Below, piece by piece: positions 6,776 through 25,480 of a stretch of DNA of 25,589 nucleotides (the first letter of the stretch is position 1; each line of letters begins with the position of its first letter). Location of the stretch: IMG/VR virus record IMGVR_UViG_3300021424_003787, positions 1 through 25,589 of that record; one strand, 5' to 3'. The notes under the pieces are model-generated. The model saw only the letters and a list, made by a program, of their open reading frames with translations. It was not told where the DNA came from and ran no database searches. This DNA is from a virus. Both the position numbers and the translations under genes were made by a program.

Positions 6776-6780
6776 GTTTT

Positions 6781-6796
6781 ACCCGAATGTTCGGGT
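6781..6796 (-). promoter_or_regulatory. short hairpin just before the second giant gene
   Basis: ACCCGAATGTTCGGGT is a perfect palindrome around a 2-base centre, or a 6-base stem with a 4-base loop. It ends 5 bases before the ATG at 6775. No T-run follows on the minus strand, so it is unlikely to be a terminator. As RNA it would sit where a ribosome binding site is expected. Confidence 0.4.
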
Positions 6797-6802
6797 AGGT
6801 GT

Positions 6803-8545
<1,743 letters not shown>

Positions 8546-8549
8546 AGAA

Positions 8550-8554
8550 CTCCT
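8550..8554 (-). promoter_or_regulatory. ribosome binding site that decides the start at 8545
   Basis: AGGAG lies 4 bases before the ATG at 8545. The upstream in-frame ATG at 8584 has no such sequence and would lie only about 18 bases from the predicted transcript start. I therefore place the start at 8545. Confidence 0.65.
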
Positions 8555-8608
8555 GAATGTGCAGGGAAATACCGTTGCTGGCATTAACCATTAATTAAAT
8601 TGTACTAA

Positions 8609-8660: not shown

Positions 8661-10181
8661 TCAATCCTCTTCTTTTTTCAAAATTGTTCGATTGCCAAGT
8701 TTGGGGAATCTTGTGAGCTTTGTGACTTTTCCATCTTCTTCTATTCTCTTTCTTGCTGCTCTAAGTTGTTCATCGCTAAATATGTCATCAATTGTGTATT
8801 TTGTTCCAAATATGTCGTTAAATCTGTTGACAAAATTCTGCAGGTCGGATTTTCCGAATCTCGGTTCGTCGCCCTTATTCTTGCTAAATCTTTTTCCTTT
8901 TGCTTGTTCTGCAGCGTTTAGAGTTGTTCCGATATCTCGAGTTCCAAAAATTGTTTCCATTGAGGTGTAGGAGGCAAATTCTGAACCATCAAATTTTGTA
9001 GATATCAAGTTTGCAACTGTTTCGTAGACAACATCTTTTCTTCTTGCAAGCTCATAATCAAGACGCTTGCCGGCATCATTTGATTTAAATACCGATTTTG
9101 CGTCTTTGATAACACCAATACGAATAAGTTCCGATATAACAGCAATGGGCACACCCTCTGACCTGTATCTTTGCGCAGTTTTACCTCCTGGGGCAACAAG
9201 TTCTGTTTCTTTCTTTGTGGCGGATATCTTCTTTTGTAGCTTTTCTTCCCATTTTTTATCATTTGGGTCAATCCCAAGAGCTTCCAATAATTCTTGCAGC
9301 TTAAATTCAGCTTTGGTTGTTTTTTGTTCTACAGAATCATTGTCCGTATCTTTCATTTTTATTTTTGCGTCTGGTATTGGCTTTGTTTCTGGGTCGTAGC
9401 CCTCAAAGGTTAGGTCTACGTCTGCGTCCTTGTATGGCCTATCTGCTTCGTAATCACCATCAAATGGAAACTGACCAGATGTTTTAAATTTATCCAAATC
9501 ATCATTTAGTTTTTCGTAATCGTTTTGACTAATTACTGTCCCATCTGGCTTTCGCCACCGTGGGTATGCGTCTTTTCCAAACGCTTCTGTCATAAATCTT
9601 TGTCTCATTAATGAACGGTTTGCGTTTTCGAAGAATCTATCCATCGAATTCTCTGCTCCCCCAAAACCATCTTCATCAGGCGTAGTTGGTGAAAATAGTT
9701 TCCACAATGGGAATTCTTTTGTGTTTCCGATTTCTGCAATTAAATTCATAACATCGTTGTAACTAATTGCTGCATCTTCTCTGTCCATTTTTCTTATTGA
9801 CGAAAAATCAGTTATCCCCAATAGTGATGCCAATTCTATATTGTTCAACTCCCTTGTTGAATTGTTTTTATCGGGTACGGATATTGCCCGCCTAAGTTTT
9901 GCAATCGGAAGCATCCAATTTTCTGGATTTGCGGTTTGTGTGCTATTCGTAGAGATGCTTCCTATTGTTACTTTCCCTCTTTGTTTCATTCTTTCGCCAG
10001 TCTCGCTCATTGCCTTCTTTATCGCGCTACTTCTTTGATTTTCGTCACTGGTGCTTATGGATGTTTTAAGCGACCAGCCAACTTTACCGAAAGCTCGCCA
10101 AATTTGTCTTGCCATATTAACTTGTTCAGTTGTTCCACCAAACCCATCAAGTCTTGATTTGGTGGCAGAATCCGGAAGGCC
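8661..10181 (-). other. unrecognised C-terminal module of the first giant protein
   Basis: Residues 4404-4909, after the last R(L/I)SSG site and ending at a TGA. It is charged, mostly helical in appearance and has no low-complexity tract. It contains MLPIAKLRRAIS, FGKDAYPRWRKPDGT and YRSEGVPIAVISELIRIG. I recognise no family and see no catalytic signature. Its terminal place and lack of further sites suggest one folded protein of about 500 residues. Confidence 0.6.
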
Positions 10182-13100: not shown

Positions 13101-16100
13101 TCTGTCAAAGCCGGCTGTTTTCCAATCGTATTTCATATTTTCTTGAACATCTTCAAGTGTCGTTGTGACTCTTCTTGGGCCGCTGCCAGAAGAAAGTCTT
13201 CCGTTTTGTGCGTCAGATATTATTTTTTTCGCTGCAGATTTTTCTTTTGGTCCAACATTTTGATTGTTTAGTCTTTCTTTTGCCCATGAAACATTAAATG
13301 CTTTTCCAATATTTTCTTGCAATTCGCTTATGTTTCGTGCGACATCTGCACTAATTTCGTAATTGACATCAAAAGCATAATCATTATCCAAATCAGCATC
13401 TGATTCGTTTTGAATTGCATATTTGATTGTTGGCAAAGAATCAAAAATACTTCTCATTTTCGCAAGTGATGAATTAACATAAGCAGAAACTTCTTTATTG
13501 TCTTCATCTGCAAGAGAGGAATTTAGAGCGTCATCAAATTGATTGTTCCAATATGATGCTTTCCCAGATGAGAGTCTCTCTTCTCCTGACAATTCTGCAA
13601 TGCCAAACTTTTGGTCATCTATCGTATTTGTGTCACCCTGGTCGTCATCATAGGTGTCATCGTCGCCAACTTCTATTGGACCATCTTCGTCTTCGTCTTC
13701 GCCATCTTCTTCGTCCGAAATGTCGTTTTCTTTTCCGTCGGAATTCAGTTCATCAAGTTCGTCTTGCTCTTTTTCTGAAATGTCGGTGCCGCCTTCAATT
13801 ATCTCTTCTATTGTGAGCTCGTCATCAGCTGGGTCTCCCTCGATGTCCTTGTCATCATCATCATCATCTTTTTTGTCAAGTGGCTCTGGATATGGGAACC
13901 TAAACCCATTTGGCTCACGAAGTGCTTCTGCGGTTTTTCTGTCTTCTGGATTTTTTGAATCTGCAAGCTCGTCGATATACCTGTTGAGCCTTGCAACGGC
14001 GTTATTTCTCCTATCTTCTCCCTCTGTCGTTCTCGTTCCAAGATAAAGTTCAGCAAGAACTCTGCCTGGGTCGATTCGCTTCTTTGCTCTCGTCAGGGCA
14101 ACATAAACAATATTTAATTCTTCTCTAAATGCTTCCGAAATTTTTCCTTGTATTTCAAGTTCGTCATCAATGCTCCCAAACGCGTCTTGCCAAGATTCCC
14201 CAAGAACGACATCATCTGCTTCCATTCCCTTAAATAGCTGAGCGGTAGTTACAACGGCATCTGCACCGTTTGTGTTGGCGGCTTTTCTAATCTCACTTGC
14301 TGCTTCCTGAATTAATTCGGAAAGTTTTTCTTCACTACCGCCAACATCCTTGATGTCCAAAATGTAAGCATCATTTATGTGAACAGCATCTGCGCGCTGC
14401 GACGTATCGCCCTTTTCGACATATTTAAACTTGCCGGCAAATCTCGGGTCTCTTGACATAATTCGTTTTACGTCTTCCCTGTATGTGCCGCCTTTTCTTC
14501 CCTGTTTGCCATCCACTTTTGGTCTTGGCGTACTTAGTCCATGTCCACTTATTATTACCTTTCCTGTCCATTTTCCTGGAGAGTTTCCATCACCGCCAGC
14601 TATGTCGAGTGTGGCATATATTGTTCCAACGTCTTTCAAATCCAAAATTGGAATTGCCTGACGCTGTGAAGTCATTTGAGGTTTTTTTTGCTTGCTTGTT
14701 TTTGCGTTTTTTCTATTTGCTATCTCTCTTATTTGGGCAACGCTCATGTAGCCCCATTTTGTGCTCATTTTTATTGCTTGTCGCTCTGGGATTATTGTTG
14801 GTTCGCGCCATTCCATCTGTCCGCCAGCGCCAGCCTTTGAGTGTCCTTCGAGCATGTGAATATATGTTTTTGGAGATATGAATTTTGCTTTTCCGTCTTC
14901 GCCTCTGGTAAACATCAATTTCCACATGGCTGTCATTTGTTGATATCTCTTTTGGCCAAGACGTTTATCCACCTGCTCTTTTGTCCATATGTTTCCGAAT
15001 AACGGTGAAGCTGGTGGTCGTCTTTCTGGGTAGGTCAATTTGTACTCATCTGTACCAAGAATCCACGCCGCGTGTTTAAAGAAAGCAATCAACTCTTCGT
15101 GTTTTTTCGCTGATGTGGCGATTTGTGGAGATAGTTTTTCCCAATTTTCTTGGCCTTCCCTTAAAGAATCGGCCAAATGCGTTGTTCTTAGATGTTGGGC
15201 CAATCTCGTTGCTGCTGTGAATATTTCGGCATTGTCTCGAGTTAGATATGCATAACTTCTTCCCTTTTGTGGAAGCAGCTCTCCCTGAGGCCTTGGGTCG
15301 CCGTCGTCATCCAAAATGGGTTTGCCTTTTTCATCCAGTAATGGCATTTCGGAGTCCCAGATTTCACCCATTGCCTCATCGATTGCCGAGTCTTTTCTAT
15401 CAGAAAGAATTTTTATTTTTTGCGCATCTGGAATTCCGTCATCAAAAATTTTTAGCATTTCGCCATTTTTGTCAAACCCATCTTTTTTCGGACCAAGCGT
15501 GCTAGAAAGACCAAAATCTTCGTCGAGAGTTTTGAGAATGTTTCTAAGTATGGATTTTTCTTCGTCGCTTCTATCAGTTTTTTTCAGTAGCTCAATTGCA
15601 TCATCAAACTGCCCCCTGACCAAACTTTCCAGATGTCCGGAAACAAATTGCATTTCAAAATTGTCGATTCCCTTTTCTTCATCATCAATGTTCCCAAGGA
15701 ATTGAATTACGTTTGCAAGATATGCAATTCTTGAACCAAATCTGAATGATTCATTAAGTGGCAGTATGTAGTCCGGATTTATTGCAGCTAGTGCATTTAT
15801 GGCCCGTCTAAATCCATAAACTTTTTGCCTTGCGTCTCCAACCAATATAATCGGCATTTTATCTTTATTTGCTTCAAGGACTTGAAGCATTACTGGGTTT
15901 AGGTCTTGCGCTTCATCTATCAGCATCGCAGAAACTTTTTTACCAGGATTTCCAAATGATTTTTGTATAACCGCGCTTTGGTTACCCTTTTTCCCTCTTT
16001 GCCCCTTGAGTGAGGTAATCACCCAAATATCACTAAGGTCTGTGCCCGCAGGAAATTTACCTTTTTTGTCCATTTTCAAAACTGTTCCGTCGCCCGTTGT

Positions 16101-19100
16101 GTAATCGCCAATTGTTCCAGCAGTCTGAACCTGTTGTTTTTTTGTCAGTCCGTCGGCATGTCCAATCATGTATTTGCCTTCTAACAAATCTGGTTTGGAC
16201 ATTGCGAAAAGCTTGTACATTTGAGTTTGGTCTGGAACGACAGGGCTTAAGACTTTTTTGCCATCTTTGCCAACAATGGGTTTGCCCTTTTTGTCGGTGA
16301 CAAATTCATTTTGGAGCAAGCTTACGGTTTCTGCAGCATAATCAACCCATTCTTGAGGGATATACTTTTCTGGATTTTGTGCAACCTCTATCAAAAATGC
16401 ACTATCGACAAGTGGGTCTACTGCCTCTTCTTCAAAAGCAGAACCATCATCATCAGCGCCAACGTTAGTGGTTTTGTCTTTGAACCCTTTAATAACTCTC
16501 TTTTTCTTTTTATTTCTTCTTGCGCGTTTTTCTGATATTTGTTGTGGGGTCAAAGCGAAATGCTTAGCACTTAACTCTTCGTCGGTACTATATGCCCAGT
16601 TTTCAACGGCTTTAGCAATAAAAAACCCAAGGTCATCAACAGTCATCTGGGCAAATTGTGGAATCTTTTTTGTTGGTATTGGTTTTTGTTTTCCTTTTGG
16701 CTGAACACCACTGTCGTGAAACAAATCTCGTAGACCAAAATATCTTATGAAGTCTTCAGCTTTTGACAATTCCCGTAGTCCAGCATCTTCCAAAACTGGT
16801 ACTTCTCCAATTATTTCTACGCGTCCGCCGGTTATGTAATTTTCAACAGTGAAAACAGCCGGTGTTCCGTCTTTTTTCTTAGTTCTTTTGCTTTTTTTTC
16901 TTATTGGTGTTCCGTCTGCATTTATAAATGCGGCAGGCTTCAGGTCTTGTCTCATCGTTTGCATTTTTTTGGCTATGTGTGGTCCAAAGCGCTTGTCTGC
17001 TGCACCGAGTCGCAAACCCCAAAATGCGAGCTTGTCCAAGGTGGACACTCCGGTAGTTTGTTCGGGGAAAGCTCTTTCTGCTTCAAATTGATTAGTTCTA
17101 TTGAAAACACCGTAATAAAGATTCGGTTCCCCATATTTTTCTTTTAGCTTGCCAACGGCTTCTTTTGCTTGGTCAATGGGAATTTTTGTAAGGTCTTTAA
17201 TTCCCATTTCTTTCAAATCATCAGAAAATTTATCTGCAAGGTATCGAAGTTTGTGATTTAACTGAACGTCGTCATCTACTAAATCCAAATTAAACATTTG
17301 TTGCATTGCTCTTGCTAATACTTTTAGTGTTGATGTTTTGCCTGTTCCTGCTCCCGCTGAAACTGAAAGAATTCTTTTGCCGACTTGGCCAAGAATCAAA
17401 CTAACCCCAAGGTCAACTATGTCTCTTTGCTGTTGTGTTGGCTCAAACCCAAGTCTGTGAGCAGCCTTGAAAGAAATTTTTGCGTCTGTTCTTTTTACGT
17501 GTAGGTCTTTGTTGTTTTCTGAACCTTTTTTGCTTGGCTTTATTGGGCCGGATTCGTTACCGCTGGACAGTCTGCCAGTTGAATCAATGACTCTTCCATT
17601 TTTGCCAGTTTTGATTGTTCTTGCGTTTAACAAATTTCTTTCTTCTTGTAATTCAAGACCACCATCTCTGGGTAGTTGAATTGCTTTTGATTGTCCAAGC
17701 CCGCGCAAGATTTTGTTTATTCCTTGCTTGTCAGAAACAGAACCCCAACCATCCGAAACTTGATGAAATTTGTTATCTCTTATAAAACCCATTCTTGTTC
17801 CGTAGTGATAAATGTCCCTATCCCCGTTTGGCATGTCGATGGATTTCCATGCCTGATTGTTGCCGGCATAAGATACTTTTCCAGAAACGTACGGCCTTGT
17901 TGCAAACTGTTCAATTTTTCCTGAAGAAAGTCTTTGTACTGTTTTTATTGCATCGATTGGCTCTGGAGCATCCTGACCCAATGCTCTTAGGATTTTTTTG
18001 ATTCCTTGCTTATCCGATACGGAACCCCAGCCATCTGAAACCTGATAGTACTTTCCATTACGAATTATTCCCATCAGAGTGCTGTAGTGATACACCTCTC
18101 TGTCGCCACTTTCTCTATCAAGTGCAGACCAGCCCCTGTTTCCGATTTTGTGAAGTTTTCCGACCTTGTGTGGTCTCTTGACAAAGTCTTCAATTTTTCC
18201 TGAGGAAAGTCTTTCATCGTCAAATCCAGTATCTTCGAATGTCCCCTTTGGTTTTCCTGGGCCAGGTATTTTGGGAGCATCTTCCATGCCCTCCAACATC
18301 GGAACTTCCTCACGCAAAGATGCATCGACTTTTCTTTCCCTGTCTTCCATGCCAAGTCGTTTTCTTAGCGTGGATGAACGATTCAACATATAATCGACAG
18401 CTTTTTGCGCTTCTGTAAGCGCTCTTTCAACTGCTTGTGGGTCGTCGTTTATTAGTTTAAACCAAGAAGCAAGATATTGTCCGTGGTCTTCTCTAAATGT
18501 TGGCTCAAGTCCAAGCATTCCCATTAAAAATGACGAACCAATTTCTGCTATTAATTCCTCGAACGCATATCGCTTGAAATCTTCAGTGTCTTTCGGAGCA
18601 TTCATTCTTCCGCCTTTTCTGTTTAGGCGAGAAGAATGGCCAGTCCAGTGAGTCATTTCGTGAAGCAGTGTTGAATAAAACCCAATCGCGTCCTTAAAGT
18701 CTTCAAACTTTGGCATGAAAATCATGTCTTTGTCTGGAGAATAAAAAGCGCCGCCGAAATTTCCTTCTTTAAAATCTGGAACAATTTCAGCAATGACTGA
18801 CTGTATGTCCGCTAGTCTTTGTTTTTCACTGAGGTTTCCTTTTGCTGGCTCATAATATGCTTTTGGCAAACCAGTAACTTCTGCCACGTTGTAAACCAAA
18901 GTATCGTGAAATTGGTTTTGAAGTTTTCTTCCGTTTTTGTACGTGGGTGCCTTTATGAGCGTCCCTCTTGCTCCTTTTTTGACTCGACCACCAAACTCTT
19001 CCCATTGTTGCTTGCCTGCCCACTTGTTTGTTTTGTAGCCCTTAGCAAAACCGGTCATAGACAAAATAAGTTGATTCAATCCCTCGTAGGCTCTTCCATC

Positions 19101-22100
19101 TGGGTTTACCTGTGTGTTTGTTATGTTTCGCGCATAATTTTCTTTGTTGGCCCAGGGTCTTTTCCATTGTTTCCCAGGATTATCCATCGCCGACTTTATT
19201 GATTCAAGTATTTGAACACTTAGGTTGTCGTATATTTTTTTCAATTCTTCTCGGTTAAAGCTGGTCTCACCAGATGAAAGTCTTTCCCTTCTCTTATTGC
19301 TGAGTTGTTCATTGAGAAATCCAATCGGTCCAAGTTGATTGAGTCTTTCGTTTGCGGCATTAGACGACGTTCTTCCAGATGACAAAACACCCTCATCGCG
19401 CACAGCATCAAAGTTTTTTTCTTTTTCTATCTGGTCGCGTTTTGCTTTTTCTTCAATTTCTTTTTGTCTTCTTGTTTCGGCAATTCTTTTATCGTCTTGA
19501 CGTTTTCTTCGTTGTCCGGTTTCTTTTACTATTGAATCAACATCACGTGGTGGAATTCCATACTTTTTGCTAAGTTTTTTAGTTGATGCACCTTGCATTT
19601 TTTCCGAATATAGATTTGCTTTTTCTCGTTTGCTGAGCTCGTTTGCTCTTCTTCTATATCTTTTTGGTTTAATTGGCTTACCACCAGCGGCGACTCTTCT
19701 CATTTCTCTCATGTGTCTTAGTTCGCGCTGACGAACATCTTCTCTTGTTGTCATCAGTTCTCTTGCCATTTCTGCAAGAGTTGCGCCATTCATTCGGCGT
19801 TCATATATCTCTTTATCGGTGAGGGGTTTTCTTGGCTCACTAAATTCAACTCTATCTTTTTTGAGTTTTTCGTCCCCAAGAAATTCTTCAATTATTCTGT
19901 CGTAAACATCAAATCCGACATCGTATGGTGCATTTTCGTCACCATACGGATTATCCGGGTCAAATCCACCATCCAACCCGGGAATGTTTGTTGTTCTTCC
20001 CCTCTCTCCGGGCTTTGGGGCGTCAGGGTCGAGATTCCACCCAGAGGAAAGTCTCCCAGTTTCATCTTTTTGAGGTTTAAAACCATATTTGTTGAGCCAC
20101 TTAAAAATTTCGTCTGAGTTTTTGTCTTCAGATGGAAGTTTTGCTGATACCTCATTGGCTATTCCATTTCGTATTCCTTTATGTTTTTCTTTGACATCAT
20201 CTGGGGTTTTGTCGTTTTCTTGATTGTTTAGGGCTTGTATAAAATTGCCAAGATGTCCAGAATATGCAAGAAACCAATCTCTGTATTCTTTTGACTTCTT
20301 ATCTTTTTCATTAAACTTTTCTGAACGTTTTCCGTTTCCTCTTCCGGTTCCAAGCCACGCAACTCTTGCTTGATTGATTCCAAGTTCTCTTCCGCGAAGA
20401 AAACTTTCCGTTTTATCACCGTCCGAGCTAGAACGTGGAGATTCATTCCACTTCATTCCAGAATCAACCCAGTTTTGTATTACTTTGTCAAACTCATCTC
20501 GTCGTTGTTTTTCGTCTCTGCTAACTCCAAATTTTTGTTCATGGTTCTTGCCTTTTCCATGCCTAGCAAGATTTCTTCCTGATGAAAGTCTTCTATCTTC
20601 TCTTTGTTTGGGACGACGTGGCTTGTCATCTCTTCCGGAGCTGATTCTTTCTTCTCTTTCTTCTGGCGTCATGTCCTCGACGGAGAACATTGCTCTATCT
20701 TTGCGTCGCTGTTCTTCTCTGCTCGATTGTTCGGCTTCGCGTCTTTCTCTTCTCTGCCCTGCAGCATCAAATGCCTCTCTGGCATTTCTCAGGAATTCAG
20801 CCTTATTTTTATCGCCCGGTCCATTTTGTTCAGCGAGGTCATCAGCCATTTCCTCAAGTTGGCTGAATACATAATCAGTATCTTTGTGCTCGTCAGCAAA
20901 ATTTAAGGCGTCCTTCCAATATTCTTCACCGTATTCCCAATCATCATCGTCAAAGCCTTCATACCCATCGAGGAATGATTGAACTATTTCTTTGGCTTTT
21001 TTCAGACTGGCTTTGTCATCATCTCTTCCGGAGCTGATTCTTTCTTCTCTTTCTTCTGGCGTCATGTCCTCGACGGAGAACATTGCTCTATCTTTGCGTC
21101 GCTGTTCTTCTCTGCTCGATTGTTCGGCTTCGCGTCTTTCTCTTCTCTGCCCTGCAGCATCAAATGCCTCTCTGGCATTTCTCAGGAATTCAGCCTTATT
21201 TTTATCGCCCGGTCCATTTTGTTCAGCGAGGTCATCAGCCATTTCCTCAAGTTGGCTGAATACATAATCAGTATCTTTGTGCTCGTCAGCAAAATTTAAG
21301 GCGTCCTTCCAATATTCTTCACCGTATTCCCAATCATCATCGTCAAAGCCTTCATACCCATCGAGGAATGATTGAACTATTTCTTTGGCTTTTTTCAGAC
21401 TGGCTTTGTCATCATCTCTTCCGGAGCTGATTCTTTCTCCGCGTCCAATTTTTTTTATATCTCTTATTTGTTCTGGCGTTTTGTCACGATTATAAATTGA
21501 ACCAGGGCCATATGGTGTTGGGTCCGGTTGTCTCCAGTCTGGATATTCGTCAAAGAGCCAACCGTTTCTATTTTTGTCTACTCTGGTATCTGGATTCAGG
21601 TCCCCCTCCGGAACACCAAAACCACGAACTCCGCGACTTCTTCCGCCGCCAAGTCGTGGTCTATCTATTAGGCGCGAGGCACCATATGAGACAAGTCTTC
21701 TACCAAGGTTTTTTACCTCAATGCCGTCATCTAGGGATTTTTTTTTTATTTCTCCGTTTAGTAGCGCGGTATCTATGGCTTCAATTAGGTCAATACTTAT
21801 TCCCGACTTTATTATAATTCCATCTGCATCAACGTAAGTTTCTGCTCCGTAGTATTCAAATATTGGGTCAAGAAGCTGTTTTGCTTGAAATGCATCATCT
21901 GTTGATATCGCAATACAATAACCTTTTTCGTCAATTTCATTTTCGTCGAATTCCGAAAGGTCTTTAAATCTTCTTCTGCGTTTCTTTCTTCTAAATCTAC
22001 CAATAGCACCGCGCAGACCAGCAAGAAGTAGCTCTCCTGGATATTTTGCTTCAAGTTCCAACAGGTAATCTTCCTGTTGTTCTGTTTCGATATCTTCTGC

Positions 22101-23390
22101 TGACTTGTCTCCAAGTTTTGCCGTAACAACCCCATTGGGTATTACAGCAAATCTGCATTTACCTTCTGGGTGAACAGGAAGAGAAATTATTTTACAAGAC
22201 GAACCACCCTCATACAAAACACAATTTGCGCATTTTACTCCTATTGCACCAACTGGATTTTTTTCCGGTGGATAATATCCAGCCCAAACACCATTGCTAT
22301 CTTCATTAAATTTTCCATGTCTTTTAACTATTTTAAGCAATGCATCTCTCAGGTCTGCTTCTTCTTTATCCAGATTGTTTTTGTCAATCGGTTTTCTATC
22401 TCCCTCATATTGAACCGGCGGAAGAGAAACAGCAACAGTTCCGGGCCCAAGTGGATTTGGTTTAATTGCGACCGGCACTGCTGGCATTTGTTGTGGACGA
22501 ATTACAACTCTGTTCGGATGACTCGGCATCATTGGTGATGGCTGCATTGGCATTGCGGATGGAGAAGATGGAGAAACTTCTGGCGTGATAATTCTTTGTG
22601 GCGCACCAAACATAAACGTTGAGCCATTTCTAGACCAACAACACTTGAATTTTTCCAGAGTGCCATTATCATTTGGTTTTGCGAAAGTTATGTTTTCATT
22701 GTCTGCTGAAATAAGCATTGTTTTTGGTCCATGCACCATTGACAATTGCTTTTGCATTTCCTCTCTATCAACCTGTGGAATAAAAGAATTTTGTTCATCC
22801 GTTTTTATTGATATTGTTCCGGTCAACTGATTTGCGCCATGCAAAACTGGAGAAACTTCGTAAAGTTCAAGTTCGTAGATAATATTTGCCTGTGTTTTTT
22901 GGTCAAATTGAGAGCGAAGTGTTTTATAGCCAATTGACCATTCTTGCTCTTCTCCAAAAAATGCTACGTTTGCAAAAGCTTCTCTTCCTTTTTCTGAATT
23001 CAAATTAAATTGAACTTTGGCAAACAATCCACCTATTCCTGCAATTTTCATTTTCATTGGCAGCCTTGGGTCGGTTGTTGGAACTTCGTAAATTTCCAAA
23101 ACCTTACCGATTGGGTCGTTCCAAGAATGACCCCACACAACTCGAGGTTTTCTGCGCATTAAGCTTTTTGTAAATGCTCCAGAAGCGACAATATCGCCAA
23201 CGCTGTCTTTGTTTCCAACGCCAGCAACGAAACACTCAACTATTCCCTGTGCCTCGTCAAGATTTAATGAATTTCCACGAGGAGAAGGAGAGCCAAGCTC
23301 GCTTGTTTTGTATTGGACTGAATCGGGTGACATGCTTTTCTTTCGTTCTTTACTTCGATAATAAGTGACTGGAGCAATGACCCGTTGCAA
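8661..23390 (-). CDS. giant polyprotein: prohead protease fused to ArdC, two SF1 helicases and other modules
   Basis: One uninterrupted frame of 4909 codons. Numbering here counts from the TTG at 23390; the ATG at 23333 (residue 20), with a purine-rich stretch before it, is the likelier start. Modules in order: S78-type prohead protease (45-195), Pro/Met-rich linker, four-Cys cluster (387-412), basic patch (about 465-480), two identical 131-aa copies, HTH-like repeats (1190-1297), ArdC-type metallopeptidase (1375-1705), two ~93-aa sister modules, SF1 helicase 1 (Walker lysine 2018, DEAQD 2492), acidic tract, a 126-aa module, SF1 helicase 2 (Walker lysine 3459, DEAQD 3676), two 39-aa acidic repeats and an unrecognised 511-aa end. 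The peptide R(L/I)SSG or a close variant separates modules 16 times. I infer a virion polyprotein cut by its own protease into packaged products. Head proteases of this family normally occur as proteins of a few hundred residues, so the fusion is very unusual. Confidence 0.93.
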   Translation of the reverse strand: MQRVIAPVTYYRSKERKKSMSPDSVQYKTSELGSPSPRGNSLNLDEAQGIVECFVAGVGNKDSVGDIVASGAFTKSLMRRKPRVVWGHSWNDPIGKVLEIYEVPTTDPRLPMKMKIAGIGGLFAKVQFNLNSEKGREAFANVAFFGEEQEWSIGYKTLRSQFDQKTQANIIYELELYEVSPVLHGANQLTGTISIKTDEQNSFIPQVDREEMQKQLSMVHGPKTMLISADNENITFAKPNDNGTLEKFKCCWSRNGSTFMFGAPQRIITPEVSPSSPSAMPMQPSPMMPSHPNRVVIRPQQMPAVPVAIKPNPLGPGTVAVSLPPVQYEGDRKPIDKNNLDKEEADLRDALLKIVKRHGKFNEDSNGVWAGYYPPEKNPVGAIGVKCANCVLYEGGSSCKIISLPVHPEGKCRFAVIPNGVVTAKLGDKSAEDIETEQQEDYLLELEAKYPGELLLAGLRGAIGRFRRKKRRRRFKDLSEFDENEIDEKGYCIAISTDDAFQAKQLLDPIFEYYGAETYVDADGIIIKSGISIDLIEAIDTALLNGEIKKKSLDDGIEVKNLGRRLVSYGASRLIDRPRLGGGRSRGVRGFGVPEGDLNPDTRVDKNRNGWLFDEYPDWRQPDPTPYGPGSIYNRDKTPEQIRDIKKIGRGERISSGRDDDKASLKKAKEIVQSFLDGYEGFDDDDWEYGEEYWKDALNFADEHKDTDYVFSQLEEMADDLAEQNGPGDKNKAEFLRNAREAFDAAGQRRERREAEQSSREEQRRKDRAMFSVEDMTPEEREERISSGRDDDKASLKKAKEIVQSFLDGYEGFDDDDWEYGEEYWKDALNFADEHKDTDYVFSQLEEMADDLAEQNGPGDKNKAEFLRNAREAFDAAGQRRERREAEQSSREEQRRKDRAMFSVEDMTPEEREERISSGRDDKPRRPKQREDRRLSSGRNLARHGKGKNHEQKFGVSRDEKQRRDEFDKVIQNWVDSGMKWNESPRSSSDGDKTESFLRGRELGINQARVAWLGTGRGNGKRSEKFNEKDKKSKEYRDWFLAYSGHLGNFIQALNNQENDKTPDDVKEKHKGIRNGIANEVSAKLPSEDKNSDEIFKWLNKYGFKPQKDETGRLSSGWNLDPDAPKPGERGRTTNIPGLDGGFDPDNPYGDENAPYDVGFDVYDRIIEEFLGDEKLKKDRVEFSEPRKPLTDKEIYERRMNGATLAEMARELMTTREDVRQRELRHMREMRRVAAGGKPIKPKRYRRRANELSKREKANLYSEKMQGASTKKLSKKYGIPPRDVDSIVKETGQRRKRQDDKRIAETRRQKEIEEKAKRDQIEKEKNFDAVRDEGVLSSGRTSSNAANERLNQLGPIGFLNEQLSNKRRERLSSGETSFNREELKKIYDNLSVQILESIKSAMDNPGKQWKRPWANKENYARNITNTQVNPDGRAYEGLNQLILSMTGFAKGYKTNKWAGKQQWEEFGGRVKKGARGTLIKAPTYKNGRKLQNQFHDTLVYNVAEVTGLPKAYYEPAKGNLSEKQRLADIQSVIAEIVPDFKEGNFGGAFYSPDKDMIFMPKFEDFKDAIGFYSTLLHEMTHWTGHSSRLNRKGGRMNAPKDTEDFKRYAFEELIAEIGSSFLMGMLGLEPTFREDHGQYLASWFKLINDDPQAVERALTEAQKAVDYMLNRSSTLRKRLGMEDRERKVDASLREEVPMLEGMEDAPKIPGPGKPKGTFEDTGFDDERLSSGKIEDFVKRPHKVGKLHKIGNRGWSALDRESGDREVYHYSTLMGIIRNGKYYQVSDGWGSVSDKQGIKKILRALGQDAPEPIDAIKTVQRLSSGKIEQFATRPYVSGKVSYAGNNQAWKSIDMPNGDRDIYHYGTRMGFIRDNKFHQVSDGWGSVSDKQGINKILRGLGQSKAIQLPRDGGLELQEERNLLNARTIKTGKNGRVIDSTGRLSSGNESGPIKPSKKGSENNKDLHVKRTDAKISFKAAHRLGFEPTQQQRDIVDLGVSLILGQVGKRILSVSAGAGTGKTSTLKVLARAMQQMFNLDLVDDDVQLNHKLRYLADKFSDDLKEMGIKDLTKIPIDQAKEAVGKLKEKYGEPNLYYGVFNRTNQFEAERAFPEQTTGVSTLDKLAFWGLRLGAADKRFGPHIAKKMQTMRQDLKPAAFINADGTPIRKKSKRTKKKDGTPAVFTVENYITGGRVEIIGEVPVLEDAGLRELSKAEDFIRYFGLRDLFHDSGVQPKGKQKPIPTKKIPQFAQMTVDDLGFFIAKAVENWAYSTDEELSAKHFALTPQQISEKRARRNKKKKRVIKGFKDKTTNVGADDDGSAFEEEAVDPLVDSAFLIEVAQNPEKYIPQEWVDYAAETVSLLQNEFVTDKKGKPIVGKDGKKVLSPVVPDQTQMYKLFAMSKPDLLEGKYMIGHADGLTKKQQVQTAGTIGDYTTGDGTVLKMDKKGKFPAGTDLSDIWVITSLKGQRGKKGNQSAVIQKSFGNPGKKVSAMLIDEAQDLNPVMLQVLEANKDKMPIILVGDARQKVYGFRRAINALAAINPDYILPLNESFRFGSRIAYLANVIQFLGNIDDEEKGIDNFEMQFVSGHLESLVRGQFDDAIELLKKTDRSDEEKSILRNILKTLDEDFGLSSTLGPKKDGFDKNGEMLKIFDDGIPDAQKIKILSDRKDSAIDEAMGEIWDSEMPLLDEKGKPILDDDGDPRPQGELLPQKGRSYAYLTRDNAEIFTAATRLAQHLRTTHLADSLREGQENWEKLSPQIATSAKKHEELIAFFKHAAWILGTDEYKLTYPERRPPASPLFGNIWTKEQVDKRLGQKRYQQMTAMWKLMFTRGEDGKAKFISPKTYIHMLEGHSKAGAGGQMEWREPTIIPERQAIKMSTKWGYMSVAQIREIANRKNAKTSKQKKPQMTSQRQAIPILDLKDVGTIYATLDIAGGDGNSPGKWTGKVIISGHGLSTPRPKVDGKQGRKGGTYREDVKRIMSRDPRFAGKFKYVEKGDTSQRADAVHINDAYILDIKDVGGSEEKLSELIQEAASEIRKAANTNGADAVVTTAQLFKGMEADDVVLGESWQDAFGSIDDELEIQGKISEAFREELNIVYVALTRAKKRIDPGRVLAELYLGTRTTEGEDRRNNAVARLNRYIDELADSKNPEDRKTAEALREPNGFRFPYPEPLDKKDDDDDDKDIEGDPADDELTIEEIIEGGTDISEKEQDELDELNSDGKENDISDEEDGEDEDEDGPIEVGDDDTYDDDQGDTNTIDDQKFGIAELSGEERLSSGKASYWNNQFDDALNSSLADEDNKEVSAYVNSSLAKMRSIFDSLPTIKYAIQNESDADLDNDYAFDVNYEISADVARNISELQENIGKAFNVSWAKERLNNQNVGPKEKSAAKKIISDAQNGRLSSGSGPRRVTTTLEDVQENMKYDWKTAGFDRIPTDEQQLITDAVMTGDDVVVRALAGTGKTTTLEMLAKRLEDQAPSKKIVYLTFTKKMTEEAVKKFAPFRNVEVRTWDSVAYAAIVQPNESLRAKYDAKGSKLPNGKELIYSNAYSDIASHYGLKEFTAQYISKQGNVIEIKVDPYEQGLILSKALNEFSNSAEPKMSTSVIKKMAGIYDISMNDDLAKQLVVVAQKMWDDSFNPESPIQLGRNYVMKKFALTNPDLSSGVGMRKNIMGNDIILFDEAQDANPVMTAIVKNQQIQKIVVGDSNQAIYEFRGAVDELDEFKAKYDLTLTESFRFNQIIAGFANRFLAAHQRKKEGKGKVPKSAKMRLLGRGKNGSVLREESELDGFDPEKPYGPQSVARAVNRQIKPDGKRETFAYLTQTNAPAFKRIIAAQRAGLRTGSVSTFKEDLNNMVDHAQWLMNDKKGTPPAKRYAPFNEYKTWEELRRDVDPKALKKKKSSNNVQAKTAYRLLADEGFRFDTLRNIIDKIETIDEEKINEDTVTVSQVIDKAEFEIIEDGTMVASIDGNKIALNATSKALLPLFMARKPIFAGKHGFRYDKPNERWIRETSSPQEAVEIINDIKKLVRDGMLKDDSGPYSSRTKLVRAVESGSAKGILNEVAINGLDFSFVKSSDGKIRASLSGNTYFHLGGKADQRKKEKIKAGVLRWDKNANNGKGEWYFEADSVDDAVAKIEKIRSNFGLAEGEWVVAPVQKAGSDGGVDIVAQTAHRSKGLEYDYIVLGDDFKTPEKRDEGEVGEDRYWESVGEKGGGTSQDGPGPQTPEEKLDAMSEEDLRLQYVAATRAKKVLVMGSLSWIFDVTDDKDEEYARLSSGKSSRRAARRERLSSGEDDGRIGDIEDPDDEEIMKDLIENDLLPKVPTDEEMEAEYQDLIKRGELDPDDEEIMKDLIENDLLPKVPTDEEMEAEYQDLIKRGKLPSPPSDERISSGRKERRLRRAGGGERLSSGGLPDSATKSRLDGFGGTTEQVNMARQIWRAFGKVGWSLKTSISTSDENQRSSAIKKAMSETGERMKQRGKVTIGSISTNSTQTANPENWMLPIAKLRRAISVPDKNNSTRELNNIELASLLGITDFSSIRKMDREDAAISYNDVMNLIAEIGNTKEFPLWKLFSPTTPDEDGFGGAENSMDRFFENANRSLMRQRFMTEAFGKDAYPRWRKPDGTVISQNDYEKLNDDLDKFKTSGQFPFDGDYEADRPYKDADVDLTFEGYDPETKPIPDAKIKMKDTDNDSVEQKTTKAEFKLQELLEALGIDPNDKKWEEKLQKKISATKKETELVAPGGKTAQRYRSEGVPIAVISELIRIGVIKDAKSVFKSNDAGKRLDYELARRKDVVYETVANLISTKFDGSEFASYTSMETIFGTRDIGTTLNAAEQAKGKRFSKNKGDEPRFGKSDLQNFVNRFNDIFGTKYTIDDIFSDEQLRAARKRIEEDGKVTKLTRFPKLGNRTILKKEED
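10182..10196 (-). other. RLSSG site 16 (residue 4399)
   Basis: Context ERLSSGGLP. Last site; it would free the C-terminal 511-residue module. Confidence 0.7.
10236..10250 (-). other. RISSG site 15 (residue 4381)
   Basis: Context ERISSGRKE. It ends the acidic-repeat fragment; 18 residues separate it from site 16. Confidence 0.7.
10278..10506 (-). repeat. 117-bp exact tandem duplication (39-aa acidic repeat)
   Basis: The unit at 10278-10394 is repeated without visible change at 10395-10506, with a period of 117 bases that keeps the frame. Each unit encodes 39 acidic, helical-looking residues with DEEIMKDLIENDLLPKVPTD and EEMEAEYQDLIKRG. Both copies lie between two RSSG-type sites (4281 and 4381). 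Function is unknown. Confidence 0.93.
10536..10550 (-). other. RLSSG site 14 (residue 4281)
   Basis: Context ERLSSGEDD. It begins the 100-aa fragment that contains the duplicated acidic repeat. Confidence 0.7.
10581..10595 (-). other. RLSSG site 13 (residue 4266)
   Basis: Context ARLSSGKSS, about 10 residues after the last helicase 2 strand. Only 15 residues separate it from site 14. Confidence 0.7.
10623..13118 (-). other. SF1 (UvrD/PcrA/Rep-type) helicase domain 2
   Basis: Residues about 3425-4256. Motifs: PTDEQQLITDAV (Q-like); Walker A ALAGTGKTTT with lysine 3459; YLTFTKKMTEEA (Ia-like); DEAQD at 3676-3680; VVGDSNQAIYEFRGA (III); TESFRFNQIIAGFANRFL (IV); AQTAHRSKGLEYDYIVLGDD (V); and QYVAATRAKKVLVMG (VI). 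This is a complete UvrD-type set with a nearly normal size. It is not a recent copy of helicase 1, since insertions and most non-motif residues differ. An extra DLSSG sits inside it just before motif II. Confidence 0.9.
12411..12425 (-). other. DLSSG inside helicase 2 (residue 3656), probably not a processing site
   Basis: Context NPDLSSGVGM, about 20 residues before DEAQD. It has LSSG but no preceding Arg and no following basic or acidic residue. Cutting here would destroy the helicase, so it is a natural negative control for what the motif needs. Confidence 0.4.
13185..13199 (-). other. RLSSG site 12 (residue 3398)
   Basis: Context GRLSSGSGP. It lies about 30 residues before helicase 2, a distance like that of site 10 before helicase 1. 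Confidence 0.72.
13563..13577 (-). other. RLSSG site 11 (residue 3272)
   Basis: Context EERLSSGKAS. It separates the acidic tail of helicase 1 from a 126-aa unrecognised module. Confidence 0.72.
13590..13875 (-). other. acidic low-complexity tract after helicase 1
   Basis: Roughly residues 3172-3267 are dominated by Asp and Glu, starting with a DDDDDDK run and including DEEDGEDEDEDGP. It ends just before the next RLSSG site. It may act as a spacer or mimic DNA charge to keep the helicase from binding DNA too early; both ideas are inference. Confidence 0.7.
14061..17483 (-). other. SF1 (UvrD/PcrA/Rep-type) helicase domain 1
   Basis: Residues about 1970-3110. Visible motifs in order are: Q-like PTQQQRDIVDLG; Walker A AGAGTGKTST with lysine 2018; Walker B DEAQD at 2492-2496; motif III-like ILVGDARQKVYGFR; motif IV-like NESFRFGSRIA; motif V-like TTAQLFKGMEADDVVLGE; and motif VI VYVALTRAKKR. 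The set is complete, so ATP-dependent 3'-5' DNA unwinding is expected by family. Long insertions between motifs I and II make it larger than a typical UvrD (about 700 residues). It is followed by an acidic tail. The predicted processed fragment, 1940-3272, is the longest in the protein. Confidence 0.88.
17559..17573 (-). other. RLSSG site 10 (residue 1940)
   Basis: Context GRLSSGNES. It lies about 30 residues before the first SF1 helicase. Confidence 0.7.
17655..18197 (-). repeat. two diverged sister modules of about 93 aa
   Basis: Residues about 1732-1819 and 1825-1912 are clearly related along their length. Each starts right after an RLSSGK site with I-E-(D/Q)-F, contains YHY(S/G)T-MG-IR and shares the exact 15-residue signature QVSDGWGSVSDKQGI, then ends KILR-LGQ. 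The offset between the two sites is 279 bases, i.e. 93 codons. The copies differ at many positions, so this duplication is older than the 393-bp one. I do not recognise the family; the aromatic and glycine-rich pattern suggests a small compact domain. Confidence 0.85.
17919..17933 (-). other. RLSSG site 9 (residue 1820)
   Basis: Context QRLSSGKIEQF, between the two sister modules. Confidence 0.72.
18198..18212 (-). other. RLSSG site 8 (residue 1727)
   Basis: Context ERLSSGKIEDF. It ends the ArdC module and begins the first of two sister modules; the residues after the site match those after site 9. Confidence 0.72.
18276..19268 (-). other. ArdC-type antirestriction metallopeptidase domain
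   Basis: Residues about 1375-1705. The amino half resembles the ssDNA-binding part of ArdC/TraC-type proteins (NREELKKIYDNLSVQILESI, then NPDGRAYEGLNQLIL and KGARGTLIKAPTYKNG). The carboxyl half has the zincin motif HEMTHWTGH at 1577-1585, followed by SSRLNRKGGR and a glutamate-rich YAFEELIAEIGSSFL that should supply the third zinc ligand. ArdC proteins of plasmids and phages protect incoming DNA from host restriction. Flanking RLSSG sites at 1370 and 1727 would give a 357-aa product, close to the usual size of about 300 residues. A domain of this type inside a head polyprotein suggests delivery with the DNA. Confidence 0.85.
19269..19283 (-). other. RLSSG site 7 (residue 1370)
   Basis: Context RERLSSGET. 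It lies immediately before the ArdC-like domain, so cutting here would give that domain an almost clean amino end. Confidence 0.72.
19374..19388 (-). other. VLSSG variant site 6 (residue 1335)
   Basis: Context EGVLSSGRT. The arginine of the motif is replaced by valine, while the following arginine is kept. It sits at the end of the HTH module. Confidence 0.55.
19500..19823 (-). other. two HTH-like repeats in a basic segment
   Basis: Residues about 1190-1297 hold two similar helix-turn-helix-like stretches. The first reads LTDKEIYERRMNGATLAEMA and then RELMTTREDV; the second reads LSKREKANLYSEKMQGAS and then KKLSKKYGIPPRDV. Both have the small-residue turn and pattern of homeodomain/resolvase-type DNA-binding helices, and both are flanked by Arg/Lys-rich segments. 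A DNA-binding internal virion protein is the simplest reading. It is inferred from pattern only. Confidence 0.5.
20040..20054 (-). other. RLSSG site 5 (residue 1113)
   Basis: Context GRLSSGWN. It begins the 222-aa module that carries the HTH-like repeats. Confidence 0.7.
20577..20591 (-). other. RLSSG site 4 (residue 934)
   Basis: Context RRLSSGRN. It begins a 179-aa module of unknown function with a basic amino end. Confidence 0.7.
20634..20648 (-). other. RISSG site 3 (residue 915)
   Basis: Context ERISSGR, at the end of the second 131-aa copy. Only 19 residues separate it from site 4. Confidence 0.7.
21027..21041 (-). other. RISSG site 2 (residue 784)
   Basis: Context ERISSGR, at the boundary between the two identical 131-aa copies. 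Confidence 0.7.
21420..21434 (-). other. RISSG site 1 (residue 653)
   Basis: Context ERISSGR. First site after the protease and four-Cys module. Cutting here would release an N-terminal product of about 650 residues containing the protease. Confidence 0.7.
22131..22238 (-). other. four-cysteine metal-binding-like cluster
   Basis: Cysteines at residues 387, 390, 399 and 412 of the giant protein (CANC, SCK, KCRFAVIPNG) have the spacing C-x2-C-x8-C-x12-C expected for a small zinc or iron-sulfur site. It lies after the protease and a Pro-rich linker and before a very basic RFRRKKRRRRFK stretch that could contact DNA. The metal and function are not determinable from sequence. Confidence 0.55.
22806..23258 (-). 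other. HK97-family (peptidase S78) prohead protease domain
   Basis: Residues about 45-195 of the giant protein. The family's catalytic Ser-His pair is visible as H88 in VVWGHSW and S152 in EWSIGYK; E178 in LELYEVSPV fits the acidic residue in the conserved ELYEVSPV end of the fold. It begins in the usual way (GIVECFVAGVGNKDSVGD, then GAFTKSL). This enzyme class matures heads by cutting scaffold and capsid proteins inside the prohead and normally destroys or removes itself afterwards. Position right after the portal agrees. The catalytic residues look intact, so an active protease is expected. Confidence 0.9.
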
Positions 23391-23434: not shown

Positions 23435-25480
23435 TTAGCCATCTTGACCGAAATTCCATGCAGCATTTACTTCCGAATCAGCAATATCGGCCTGTTCTTT
23501 TGCAAAAAAGTTTGCATACATTTCTACGATTTTCTGTTTGAAAGAAATGAATCTTTCGTCTTCTCCCTTTGTATTGAACGAGTCAATCATAAATGAGTTT
23601 ATTTCAGAAATAAATTTGCTGTTTAAATTTTTTATACTTGTAAGCCTTTCGTCAATTTGTTTTGCAACTTGAAGCGCTTGAAGATTTTTGGTCTTGATTC
23701 CCTTCAATTCAAAGTTAATTTGCTTTCGTTCATTTGAGTTATTTATTATTGCCGAGAACAACGGCTTTATGTCTTCATCTATTTGCCTATTCCATGTTTC
23801 AATAGAAATAATTGTTTCAACGTCTAGCGTTCCGGATGAAAGTGCTTTTTTGGATTTTGCTCCGTTTATTTTTTCAAGCACAACTCGCTGCTGTCTTTCA
23901 AAAACTCTTTCAATTCCTCTTGATAATATTTCTGACCATCTTTCAATTTCAAATTGAGAATCTTCTTGTTCTGATTTTGTTTGAATTCCAGAGTCAGATG
24001 CTGTGGCGATTCCCGCTGGAACCTGTGGCTGCATTGCTGCTCCAGTTGCTTCTGGTGGAAGTGGGCTTTGAGCAAGCGCCCCACTGACTTCAGCCATTGC
24101 GCCCTGCATTGTGTTTGGGTCAAGCGGCGGTTCTTGTCCTGGCATTTGTGGCATTCCGGGCATTCCAGGCATTGGTGGCATTCCGGGCATGCCCGGCGCG
24201 CCGCCTGGAGCTCCAGGGACTTGAGCAGCATTTTCTTCCATCTTCTTTTTTGTATTCGCAATCGGAATAAGGTTTGGATTCATCAGCAAAGAATCGGCCA
24301 AGTCTGCGTCCACTTCTTTTCTTGCTGAACCGATTCTGTATTCGTTTACACTTATCAATCCAGCTTGAAGTTCTTGCATTAGATAGCGTTCGCGTTCCTG
24401 TTTGTAGAGCATGAGAATTGGAACTTCTGAAGTATCAAAATCAATGTAATACTTATCGTCCAATTCGTCAAGTGCCCTGGAAACAATCTCCAAATGTGGA
24501 CCCATTGTTTCTACCCAAAAAACTCGTATTTCCTCTGCCGCATTTGAAAATGTTCGCCCTGCTGCATTTCCAATAACTGATTCTGGGACTCCGAAAGCTG
24601 AAAGTATTTCTTCTTTTGTTATCTGTCGCATTTGCATATATGCAGCATCTCTTGGCGATGCTGAGGTATCTACAAAATCAACTCCTTCATCTGAAGAAAT
24701 TACAGTTGTTTGACCAGTTTTTGAAATATTTCCTCTAAATCTACTTCTCAATTCATCTTTATCGTCCTCATCTATTTCTCCGCGAACCACAAGCAAACCA
24801 CCCGGTCTTCCATCATTTAACAGATAATTTCTGTTATATATTTTTGCCAGATTCTCAATTTCGATAGCAACACCAGATGCTTCAAGTGGGGTCAAAGACA
24901 AATATGGGTCTATGGGATGCGGTCTTCTAACCCAACACACATCTTCTGGTTTTAAAATTATTTTTTGGCCATATGGCATCATCACTTCATAGCCGGAAAC
25001 AAATTTCTTTGGATGTGGTATTGGGGCTGTTGATTGAGGCGGAAGAAGGTTTAGAGCGATTATCCCGCCATCTCTGCCACGTATTTTTTCTATAAATACA
25101 CCCCTTGTTCCAAGCAGTAATTGAGCGGAAAGTCTGTACCTAAAAATAAATGAGTTTTCTCCAACATTTGTTCTGTTATTCAACAGCTCCAAAATTGTGG
25201 AACGTTCTGCTTCTTTTCCTTTTACTTGCTGGCCATGCTTGGAATTGTCTTTTCTCAGCATCATGGTCAATCTGGCTTGATTACCAGAAATCGCGTCAAT
25301 ACAGCGATTAACCCAAGTAATTTTCGACATTCCCTCGCGGTATGCGCGCTCGATGTCCCAGCCATCCCTATACGCCTTATCGGCAAATGAGGGGTTTGCT
25401 GATATCGGCAAACCGTAACCCAAAGATTTTGAATTTCCCGGGCGCAATGATTTATTGTTAGGCGAACTGTTCCAAGCCAT
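23435..25480 (-). CDS. phage portal protein with C-terminal extension
   Basis: This 681-aa protein is recognisable as an HK97-type portal, the dodecameric ring at the head vertex through which DNA enters and leaves and to which the terminase docks. The core covers roughly residues 30-390. It includes the NRCIDAISGNQARL start, EDVCWVRRPHPIDPYLSLTP, a YNRNYLLNDGRPGGLLVV segment and the ITKEEILSAFGVPESVIG motif typical of the family. After the core comes a Met/Pro/Gly-rich linker (about 415-480), then a helical C-terminal region of about 180 residues ending ADIADSEVNAAWNFGQDG, which recalls the TE-x-x-x-x-N helix of SPP1 gp7-like head proteins; that resemblance is inference. ALSSG lies at residues 546-550. 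No clear Shine-Dalgarno precedes the ATG at 25480. The first giant gene follows 44 bases or more downstream. Confidence 0.93.
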   Translation of the reverse strand: MAWNSSPNNKSLRPGNSKSLGYGLPISANPSFADKAYRDGWDIERAYREGMSKITWVNRCIDAISGNQARLTMMLRKDNSKHGQQVKGKEAERSTILELLNNRTNVGENSFIFRYRLSAQLLLGTRGVFIEKIRGRDGGIIALNLLPPQSTAPIPHPKKFVSGYEVMMPYGQKIILKPEDVCWVRRPHPIDPYLSLTPLEASGVAIEIENLAKIYNRNYLLNDGRPGGLLVVRGEIDEDDKDELRSRFRGNISKTGQTTVISSDEGVDFVDTSASPRDAAYMQMRQITKEEILSAFGVPESVIGNAAGRTFSNAAEEIRVFWVETMGPHLEIVSRALDELDDKYYIDFDTSEVPILMLYKQERERYLMQELQAGLISVNEYRIGSARKEVDADLADSLLMNPNLIPIANTKKKMEENAAQVPGAPGGAPGMPGMPPMPGMPGMPQMPGQEPPLDPNTMQGAMAEVSGALAQSPLPPEATGAAMQPQVPAGIATASDSGIQTKSEQEDSQFEIERWSEILSRGIERVFERQQRVVLEKINGAKSKKALSSGTLDVETIISIETWNRQIDEDIKPLFSAIINNSNERKQINFELKGIKTKNLQALQVAKQIDERLTSIKNLNSKFISEINSFMIDSFNTKGEDERFISFKQKIVEMYANFFAKEQADIADSEVNAAWNFGQDG
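23831..23845 (-). other. ALSSG site in the portal C-terminal region (putative processing site)
   Basis: Portal residues 546-550, in the context SKKALSSGTLD. It matches the R(L/I)SSG peptide of the two giant proteins except that A replaces R, with two lysines just upstream. Cutting here would separate about 130 C-terminal residues from the portal body. A single imperfect match could be chance. Confidence 0.45.

Follow-up and report, generated by a model that had tools for sequence, protein, structure and literature searches.

A giant gene with a prohead protease and an ArdC cassette

The stretch analyzed here, the whole 25,589 bases of IMG/VR record IMGVR_UViG_3300021424_003787 (hereafter the window), derives from an uncultured virus and is classed as linear. 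All of its large open reading frames (ORFs) lie on the minus strand and encode a portal protein, a giant chain designated poly1, an acidic protein of 593 residues and a second giant chain, poly2. The portal gene lies upstream of poly1 in the window and in relatives the major capsid protein (MCP) gene lies downstream of the poly1 region, placing poly1 within a head-gene cluster. Poly1 occupies an ORF of 4909 codons (8661-23390) when counted from the TTG at position 23390, and residue numbers given below follow this count. As relatives open with the same 'M...YK...NLDEAQ', translation probably begins at the ATG of ORF residue 20 (position 23333), in which case natural numbering would be 19 lower.

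Pfam and PHROG searches showed that several unrelated effector-type domains are united in this one polypeptide. Peptidase_S78, the prohead protease domain, comes first, and is followed by ArdcN and MPTase-PolyVal, the two domains of ArdC proteins, and by two UvrD-like helicase regions. The protease domain was also matched by PHROG 3244, and its residues H88, S152, E173 and E175 were invariant in an alignment of 79 sequences; H88 and S152 are presumably the catalytic pair, as in the S78 family. A short motif of the form xLSSG recurs between the cassettes. The coordinates of all features are collected in Table 1.

Identity of the ArdC cassette

The original prediction had placed an ArdC-like module between RLSSG motifs at residues 1370 and 1727 of poly1, and both motifs were located there. 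The interval then given for the whole module, 18276-19268, was too short, stopping about 21 residues before the second site. The amino-side site had been said to lie at the domain edge, and this agrees well with its position, as it ends nine residues short of the Pfam boundary and the first helix of the structure model starts at module residue 6. A length of 357 residues between the sites was also correct, but the claimed likeness to the natural size of ArdC is only rough, since R388 ArdC has 297 residues and the fold in the present module ends at about residue 314, followed by a disordered tail of about 40 residues.

Both domains were recognized by Pfam, ArdcN with an E-value of 4.8e-15 (above the cut-off) and MPTase-PolyVal with one of 3.1e-33. 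Residues 1384-1682 matched PHROG 7245, 'anti-restriction protein' (E 3.6e-64), and a search of the PDB matched the module to R388 ArdC (E 6e-45). An NCBIfam search of the module gave no match, and when the exact ArdC sequence was used as a query in a viral contig collection, the sole match was a near-identical contig. A model of the module built with 25 family members had a mean predicted local distance difference test score (pLDDT) of 79.5 and a predicted template modeling score (pTM) of 0.79, and was folded over module residues 4-314. The predicted fold shows the expected ArdC domain pair. Its top Foldseek matches were ArdC entries (E 6.8e-16; template modeling score to the target 0.72-0.75; root-mean-square deviation (rmsd) 5.8-7.4), and a VIA comparison with the R388 ArdC fold (6I89/6SNA) gave a Z of 22.5 over 260 aligned residues across both domains, at an rmsd of 4.4. 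In view of the Foldseek rmsd values, the relative placing of the two domains may differ from that in R388 ArdC. Matches to structures other than ArdC were weak in both comparisons and were disregarded.

The metal site inferred at the outset was likewise borne out in the alignment. Residues H203, E204, H207, E237, E238 and Y265 of the module align to R388 H201, E202, H205, E228, E229 and Y255, for which metal-binding or catalytic roles are described (PMC7213743), and all six were invariant among the 25 family sequences. On the grounds of both sequence and model, window positions 18198-19268 encode a two-domain ArdC. It resembles R388 ArdC (PDB 6I89, 6SNA) in both domains, their order, the metal ligands and the catalytic residues, with about 30-34% identity in structural alignments. 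R388 ArdC, however, is a free plasmid protein of 297 residues made in the recipient, whereas the protein described here is one cassette of a phage chain of 4.9 thousand residues and lies between processing-like sites.

A recurrent motif brackets ArdC across the family

Poly1 contains 15 copies of R[LI]SSG, compared with a mean of 0.011 in shuffled sequences (maximum of one in 2000 shuffles), and poly2 contains three, compared with a mean of 0.005; a chance motif was thereby ruled out. As codons vary from site to site, the motif is not a DNA repeat, the exception being the RISSG sites at residues 653, 784 and 915, which border the copies of an exact tandem duplication.

Relatives were collected in a protease scan of one collection, which yielded 406 protease-bearing stretches, of which 80 were kept; as the protease was the query, all family members necessarily have the S78 domain. 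The ORF stop lay inside the fetched stretch in 43 of the 80, mostly giving ORFs of 2.9-3.5 thousand residues, and an ArdC was present in 41 of these 43. The two without were L082, a complete chain that has no ArdC, and L006, in which the cargo goes on in another frame. Every distinct ArdC module (33/33, window included) was preceded by a site matching x[LFMI][SA]SG, with a spacing of -3 to 22 residues, and a downstream site was found in all 30 modules of this first family scan that were not cut by a contig end. When fixed limits were applied (upstream site within 30 residues, downstream site within 100, no site inside), all 15 dissimilar representatives having ArdC were bracketed, compared with an expectation of 0.16; the sixteenth representative was L082.

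A second scan, using an ArdC profile, gave 75 ArdC-bearing ORFs, some of them on contigs of the first scan. Thirty-seven were fused to the protease, and in 30 of these LSSG-type sites stood on both sides of ArdC. The other 38 ORFs, in which no protease was fused, comprised 29 small standalone ArdCs and nine large ORFs. The small standalone ORFs served as a control, and none of the 29 was bracketed by sites, which rules out the motif being part of ArdC homology. Among the large ORFs, L105, L142 and L143 have sites beside ArdC and lie directly 3' of a protease ORF, while L132, the tested example of the alike L132-L134, has GMASR upstream of ArdC. A second structure model, covering poly1 residues 1118-1944, placed all five sites of that region in contact with stretches of pLDDT below 50, a class holding 234 of the 827 residues; as it was built on eight sequences and had a pTM of 0.41, this model was used for order versus disorder alone.

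A 25.6-kb record of an uncultured virus classed as linear is often a fragment, which might suggest that chance or misassembly created the giant ORF and that the motif is an effect of composition. The protease, however, is encoded by all 80 kept relatives, in 43 of which the ORF has its stop inside the stretch, and the shuffles exclude a composition effect. An artefact was therefore rejected, and this explanation is given next to no weight.

The sites are very probably real processing sites. It could be argued that the motif remains uncut and is a docking or packaging signal or a scaffold-recruiting linker, with the chain working whole in the virion, given that cleavage of poly1 is deduced from sequence and that the virion RNA polymerase of N4, which also bears an MPTase, is packaged uncut (as quoted in PMC5512222). 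The core of the motif also appears in non-cargo proteins, and this is one of several observations that sit poorly with processing: ALSSG occurs in the portal, KLSSG and ALSSG in a tape measure and DLSSG within the fold of the second helicase, so that the core by itself is not enough to mark a cut; the giant ArdC ORFs L141 and L146, which have no fused protease, show no clear bracketing; and the site of the second 'KIE' domain reads RLNSG in one relative. On the other hand, the sites lie at cassette edges and never within the ArdC fold (15/15), they fall in linkers modeled as disordered, the motif changes clade-wide in step along the chain, as is typical of a protease and its sites, and the chain is fused to a maturation protease. 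An uncut motif is accordingly regarded as improbable, and release of ArdC at its two bounding sites is strongly favoured by their conservation and co-variation.

The site class changes as a set and is shared by three chains

Single relatives favour one variant of the motif along the whole chain, namely RLSSG in the window, KLSSG in L076, GLSSG in L082, SLSSG in L048 and L078, and FSSG in L010. The seven protease-fused ArdC ORFs that lack LSSG-type bracketing extend this pattern, as most have many copies of G[FL]xSR, with up to 18 GFAS in one chain of this clade compared with 0.06 expected, and in all seven G[FL]xSR is found 10-21 residues upstream of ArdC. When the upstream site was compared with the remaining sites of its chain in 29 distinct ORFs, its class agreed with the prevailing one in 27; one ORF gave a tie and another, a fragment, a mismatch. 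Sites that keep their position while their sequence varies are expected of a protease and its substrates. One further polyprotein relative with G[LF]xSR sites, L104, was found on a contig of a metagenome-assembled genome named Phycisphaerae; the contig probably comes from a phage and was misbinned with a bacterium, and no host is inferred from it.

In five long relatives, poly1 was joined by poly2 and by a third giant chain, poly3, with the same motif variant. Poly3 measured 2205-4564 residues in the stretches read, and is not in view in the window. When the site letters of poly1 were paired with those of poly2 and poly3 in six genomes, the true pairing scored top of 720 pairings. In the stretches read of five genomes, the giant ORFs held 11-24 sites and all other ORFs 0-3, the genome with three (G003) having two of them in its tape measure. 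Furthermore, a leader of about 90 residues that ends just before the first poly1 site recurs at the N terminus of poly3 (phmmer E-values of 4e-25 in G011, 1e-8 in G009 and 4e-4 in G008), and its presence in both chains suggests a head-targeting or protease-docking part.

Poly3 was seen in L091, L096, L099, L101 and L103, with the poly1 leader at its start in three of the five. The poly3 chains scanned contained a DnaQ-like exonuclease, GNATs and HExxH motifs, and Pfam found little else in them; a Pfam search of poly2 gave no match.

Which protease probably cuts the sites

The core common to the site classes is [LFM]-x-S-[GR], a cut after G being assumed, and the S78 protease is the likely cutting enzyme. 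However, it was also considered that cutting is done by a metalloprotease domain, either the MPTase within ArdC or a related HExxH domain of poly2 or poly3, and that S78 serves the capsid alone. The metal site of the ArdC is fully conserved, and autoproteolysis by MPTase domains has been proposed by Iyer et al. in 2017 (PMC5512222). Two findings count against S78 here. HExxH domains are also found in poly2 and poly3 of several genomes, so a metalloprotease could still act in trans, and the MCPs of relatives, which would be expected substrates of S78, carry no xLSSG. Cutting by a metalloprotease is nevertheless considered unlikely. The complete poly1 of L082 has neither HExxH nor ArdC and yet has eight GLSSG sites, so that a metalloprotease of its own poly1 cannot be the cutter; phage ArdCs that stand alone have this domain but are not bracketed by sites; and the sites are tied to ORFs of the protease-fused family.

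As for the capsid, QL[ST]S was present near MCP residue 95 in 8 of 8 MCPs of the LSSG clade (L089, L094, L097, L100, L102 and L180-L182) and in none of six others (L183-L188), a comparison that is confounded with lineage. QL[ST]S is a possible capsid cutting site, and only a lead.

A run of A at the protease/cargo junction

A run of ten A, in frame, lies at the junction between the protease and the cargo. Where such a run exists in the family, it holds nine to eleven A in all 33 distinct contexts (ten in 28 of them), while only one of 63 other KKK triplets in these ORFs is encoded by AAA throughout. In both other frames a stop follows within five codons in 31 of 31 cases, as against 11% within six codons at random codons. 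In L105 and L006, whose contigs match to 98% in the compared overlap, the protease is found in an ORF of 551 residues and the cargo in an overlapping frame, the two being joined at nine A (ORFs 6669-8321 and 8276-18685 in L105; 1517-3169 and 3124-4569 in L006). From this pattern, the run is probably a programmed slippage site. What argues to the contrary is that six distinct relatives with long enough ORFs (L034, L055, L073, L076, L079 and L082) have no A run. The run may act in transcription or in translation, and a slip by RNA polymerase or by the ribosome would make protease-only chains beside protease-plus-cargo chains.

The one-base run in dnaX of Thermus thermophilus is of A as well. According to a review of slippage (PMC5009743), that gene is alike in having its longer product in one ORF, a one-base run and nearby stops in both other frames, and slipped mRNA leads to the shorter product. 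Unlike in dnaX, the two products here would be a short protease part and a long chain of protease plus cargo. For a short and a long product of this kind, Gag and Gag-Pol offer a comparison.

Two interruptions of poly1 were also seen in relatives. In L143, a single in-frame TAA around position 9926 splits poly1 just ahead of the RLSSG-ArdC cassette, and in L142, poly1 shifts frame near a run of A around 7718-7730, ahead of the ArdC part.

Other features of the window

Table 1. Features of the window and the basis for each assignment (residues are those of the poly1 ORF unless stated otherwise).
Feature	Position	Strand	Basis or remark
Portal protein	23435..25480	-	PF04860 (Pfam) and PHROG; puts poly1 in a head-gene cluster
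poly1 gene: prohead protease, linker region, leader domain, cargo cassettes	8661..23333	-	Pfam; start from relatives
Prohead protease domain Peptidase_S78, residues 48-193	22812..23249	-	Pfam, PHROG 3244, alignment
Run of 10 A (T on plus strand), in frame, candidate programmed slippage site	21738..21747	-	
Leader domain, residues 560-652, just 5' of first site	21435..21713	-	phmmer; also N terminus of relatives' poly3
Five sites 5' of ArdC: 21420-21434, 21027-21041, 20634-20648, 20577-20591, 20040-20054	20040..21434	-	First three flank exact tandem duplication
RLSSG upstream of ArdC, residues 1370-1374	19269..19283	-	Motif search
ArdC cassette between two sites, 357 residues (1375-1731), last five being the second site	18198..19268	-	Pfam, PHROG, PDB match, model
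ArdcN domain (single-stranded DNA-binding type), residues 1384-1480	18951..19241	-	PF08401
MPTase-PolyVal (zincin) domain, residues 1531-1657	18420..18800	-	PF18818
HEMTH metal-site motif, residues 1577-1581	18648..18662	-	Alignment
Glu-Glu pair, residues 1611-1612	18555..18560	-	Second is third metal ligand by alignment to R388 E229
Disordered tail, ArdC fold to downstream site	18213..18326	-	pLDDT < 50 at module residues 315-320 and 325-357
RLSSG downstream of ArdC, residues 1727-1731	18198..18212	-	Motif search
RLSSG between two 'KIE' repeat domains	17919..17933	-	Motif search
RLSSG ahead of first helicase-like cassette	17559..17573	-	Motif search
Cassette with UvrD/RecB-like helicase motifs, about 1330 residues	13578..17558	-	Pfam, PHROG
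RLSSG site	13563..13577	-	Motif search
RLSSG site	13185..13199	-	Motif search
Second UvrD-like helicase cassette, about 860 residues	10596..13184	-	Pfam, PHROG
Four further sites and short linkers: 10581-10595, 10536-10550, 10236-10250, 10182-10196	10182..10595	-	Motif search
poly2 (P0004), 2258-residue ORF, open at window edge	2..6775	-	Three RLSSG sites
poly2 RLSSG sites	3089-3103, 1910-1924, 125-139	-	Motif search

The duplication ahead of ArdC (20634-21419, minus strand) is an exact tandem repeat of a cassette of about 131 residues with RISSG closing each copy, hinting at a recent cassette duplication; a second, shorter duplication is found in poly1 near residues 4300-4380. Directly after the ArdC cassette (17574-18197, minus strand) lie two related 'KIE...' domains in tandem, each with its own RLSSG ahead of it, for which Pfam and NCBIfam searches gave no match. 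The very acidic protein of 593 residues (6803-8584, minus strand) has Cys clusters and is kept 3' of poly1 in relatives; Pfam and PHROG searches with it gave no match.

A proposed route for ArdC into the cell

The proposal made here starts from what is observed in sequences and models, namely the fusion, the sites, their conservation and co-variation, the ArdC fold and its ligands, and the A run. One gene joins a Peptidase_S78 prohead protease, a leader and cargo domains, and the motif between the cassettes would be the cutting site of the fused protease, used in cis on poly1 and in trans on the two other giant chains. The protease part would carry the chain into the prohead, where cutting would free an ArdC of about 36-40 kDa together with helicase-like and other proteins, which would be retained in the head. 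The freed proteins would then enter the cell with the DNA, and ArdC, by binding single-stranded DNA, would blunt type I-like restriction ahead of any phage gene expression. Entry with the DNA and action at this early stage, which the original prediction had also envisaged, are suggested by the fusion to a prohead protease within a head-gene cluster. Packaging of ArdC in the virion is judged fairly likely, cutting by S78 and packaging of ArdC taken jointly only slightly less so, and action of ArdC against restriction on entry is put at even chances.

It was also considered that ArdC is released and has another function, protecting single-stranded DNA during injection or replication, degrading a host protein or acting late in the producer cell. 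R388 ArdC is needed in the recipient and not in the donor, and its antirestriction requires expression there and not its protease activity (PMC7213743); that it works when made in the recipient tells against a role as a delivered protein. The catalytic residues, invariant in 25 of 25 sequences of the present family, point to a protease role that R388 antirestriction does not need, and helicase-like neighbours would suit genome handling. With the protease dispensable in R388 and the metal site nevertheless invariant here, the ArdC protease may have an added role. The closest characterized protein is, however, an antirestriction protein, and antirestriction head proteins that are co-injected exist in P1 and T4 (PMC12810830, PMC12373910). 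A function other than entry antirestriction is therefore seen as a serious possibility, although the less probable one.

A wider interpretation, which in our estimate could equally prove right or wrong, is that of a Gag/Pro/Pol-like strategy in tailed phages. A slippery run of about ten A would set the ratio between protease-only and protease-plus-cargo chains, the protease would ferry its own chain into the prohead and cut it together with the two other giant chains, and the cassettes would form an interchangeable injected arsenal, with the cut site evolving in step with the protease and ArdC nearly always among the cassettes. Since each would have its own cutting site, cassettes could be gained, moved and duplicated.

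Comparison with known systems

The polyvalent proteins described by Iyer et al. (PMC5512222) are similar in that ArdC-N and MPTase form part of multidomain phage proteins, which are presumed to accompany the DNA. Assemblin-like peptidases are reported in some of them, with processing inferred and an analogy drawn to RNA-virus polyproteins. Where that paper speaks of the position of such peptidases it mentions C termini only, whereas the S78 domain lies at residues 48-193 of the 4909 of poly1. Unlike the polyvalent proteins, poly1 has a dedicated position among head genes, an explicit recurrent site common to three giant genes, a clade-wide change of site and a slippage-like run. What is new here in comparison is thus that the protease comes first, that the sites are explicit and co-evolving, that several chains carry them and that a slippage-like run is present. 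A search of open-license papers, which did not extend to slippage in such phages, found, apart from the polyvalent-protein paper, no account of a prohead protease cutting a polyprotein of its own phage.

A head protease also trims proteins that are co-ejected with the DNA, some of them antirestriction proteins, in the case of P1 DarA, the E proteins of phiKZ and SPN3US, and the T4 internal proteins (PMC12810830, PMC10052503, PMC12373910). P1 DarA is trimmed in this way and the co-ejected Dar proteins counter type I restriction (PMC12810830), while T4 injects Ip2 and Ip3, which inhibit type IV enzymes (PMC12373910). As presented in these sources, such proteins are the products of separate genes and mostly lose an N-terminal propeptide, whereas many cassettes would here come from one protease-containing chain.

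The closest named relatives of the portal and protease, at about 37-44% identity, are those of Gordonia phage GMA6/Chidiebere, Brevibacterium phage Cantare and Streptomyces phage Gilgamesh, in which the protease gene, unlike poly1, is of ordinary size. In Gilgamesh, a protein of 4624 residues (gp48) without the motif and without a Pfam match lies between portal and protease. This giant Streptomyces phage protein (NC_073461.1, 31978-45852) and one of 3289 residues in a lake metagenome phage (OQ999401.1, 52800-62669) both lie between portal and protease and have no sites. A tblastn search of named phages with poly2 gave no match, and with the post-protease region it matched only the metagenome-assembled Actinomycetia phage DSL-LC01, which has no sites.

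Host and implications

WhiB was found in 8 of 8 long relatives, and among controls the WhiB search matched Corynebacterium only. Together with the closest named relatives of the portal and protease, this indicates that the hosts are probably actinobacteria.

If the proposed processing is correct, a large group of uncultured phages, represented by the 406 protease-bearing stretches, would carry a readable list of injected proteins, in which anything flanked by two sites is probable virion cargo, and domains of unknown function would become testable entry-stage effectors. It would also show how antirestriction proteins can precede phage gene expression, and polyprotein processing, perhaps with slippage control, would be added to head assembly in tailed phages.

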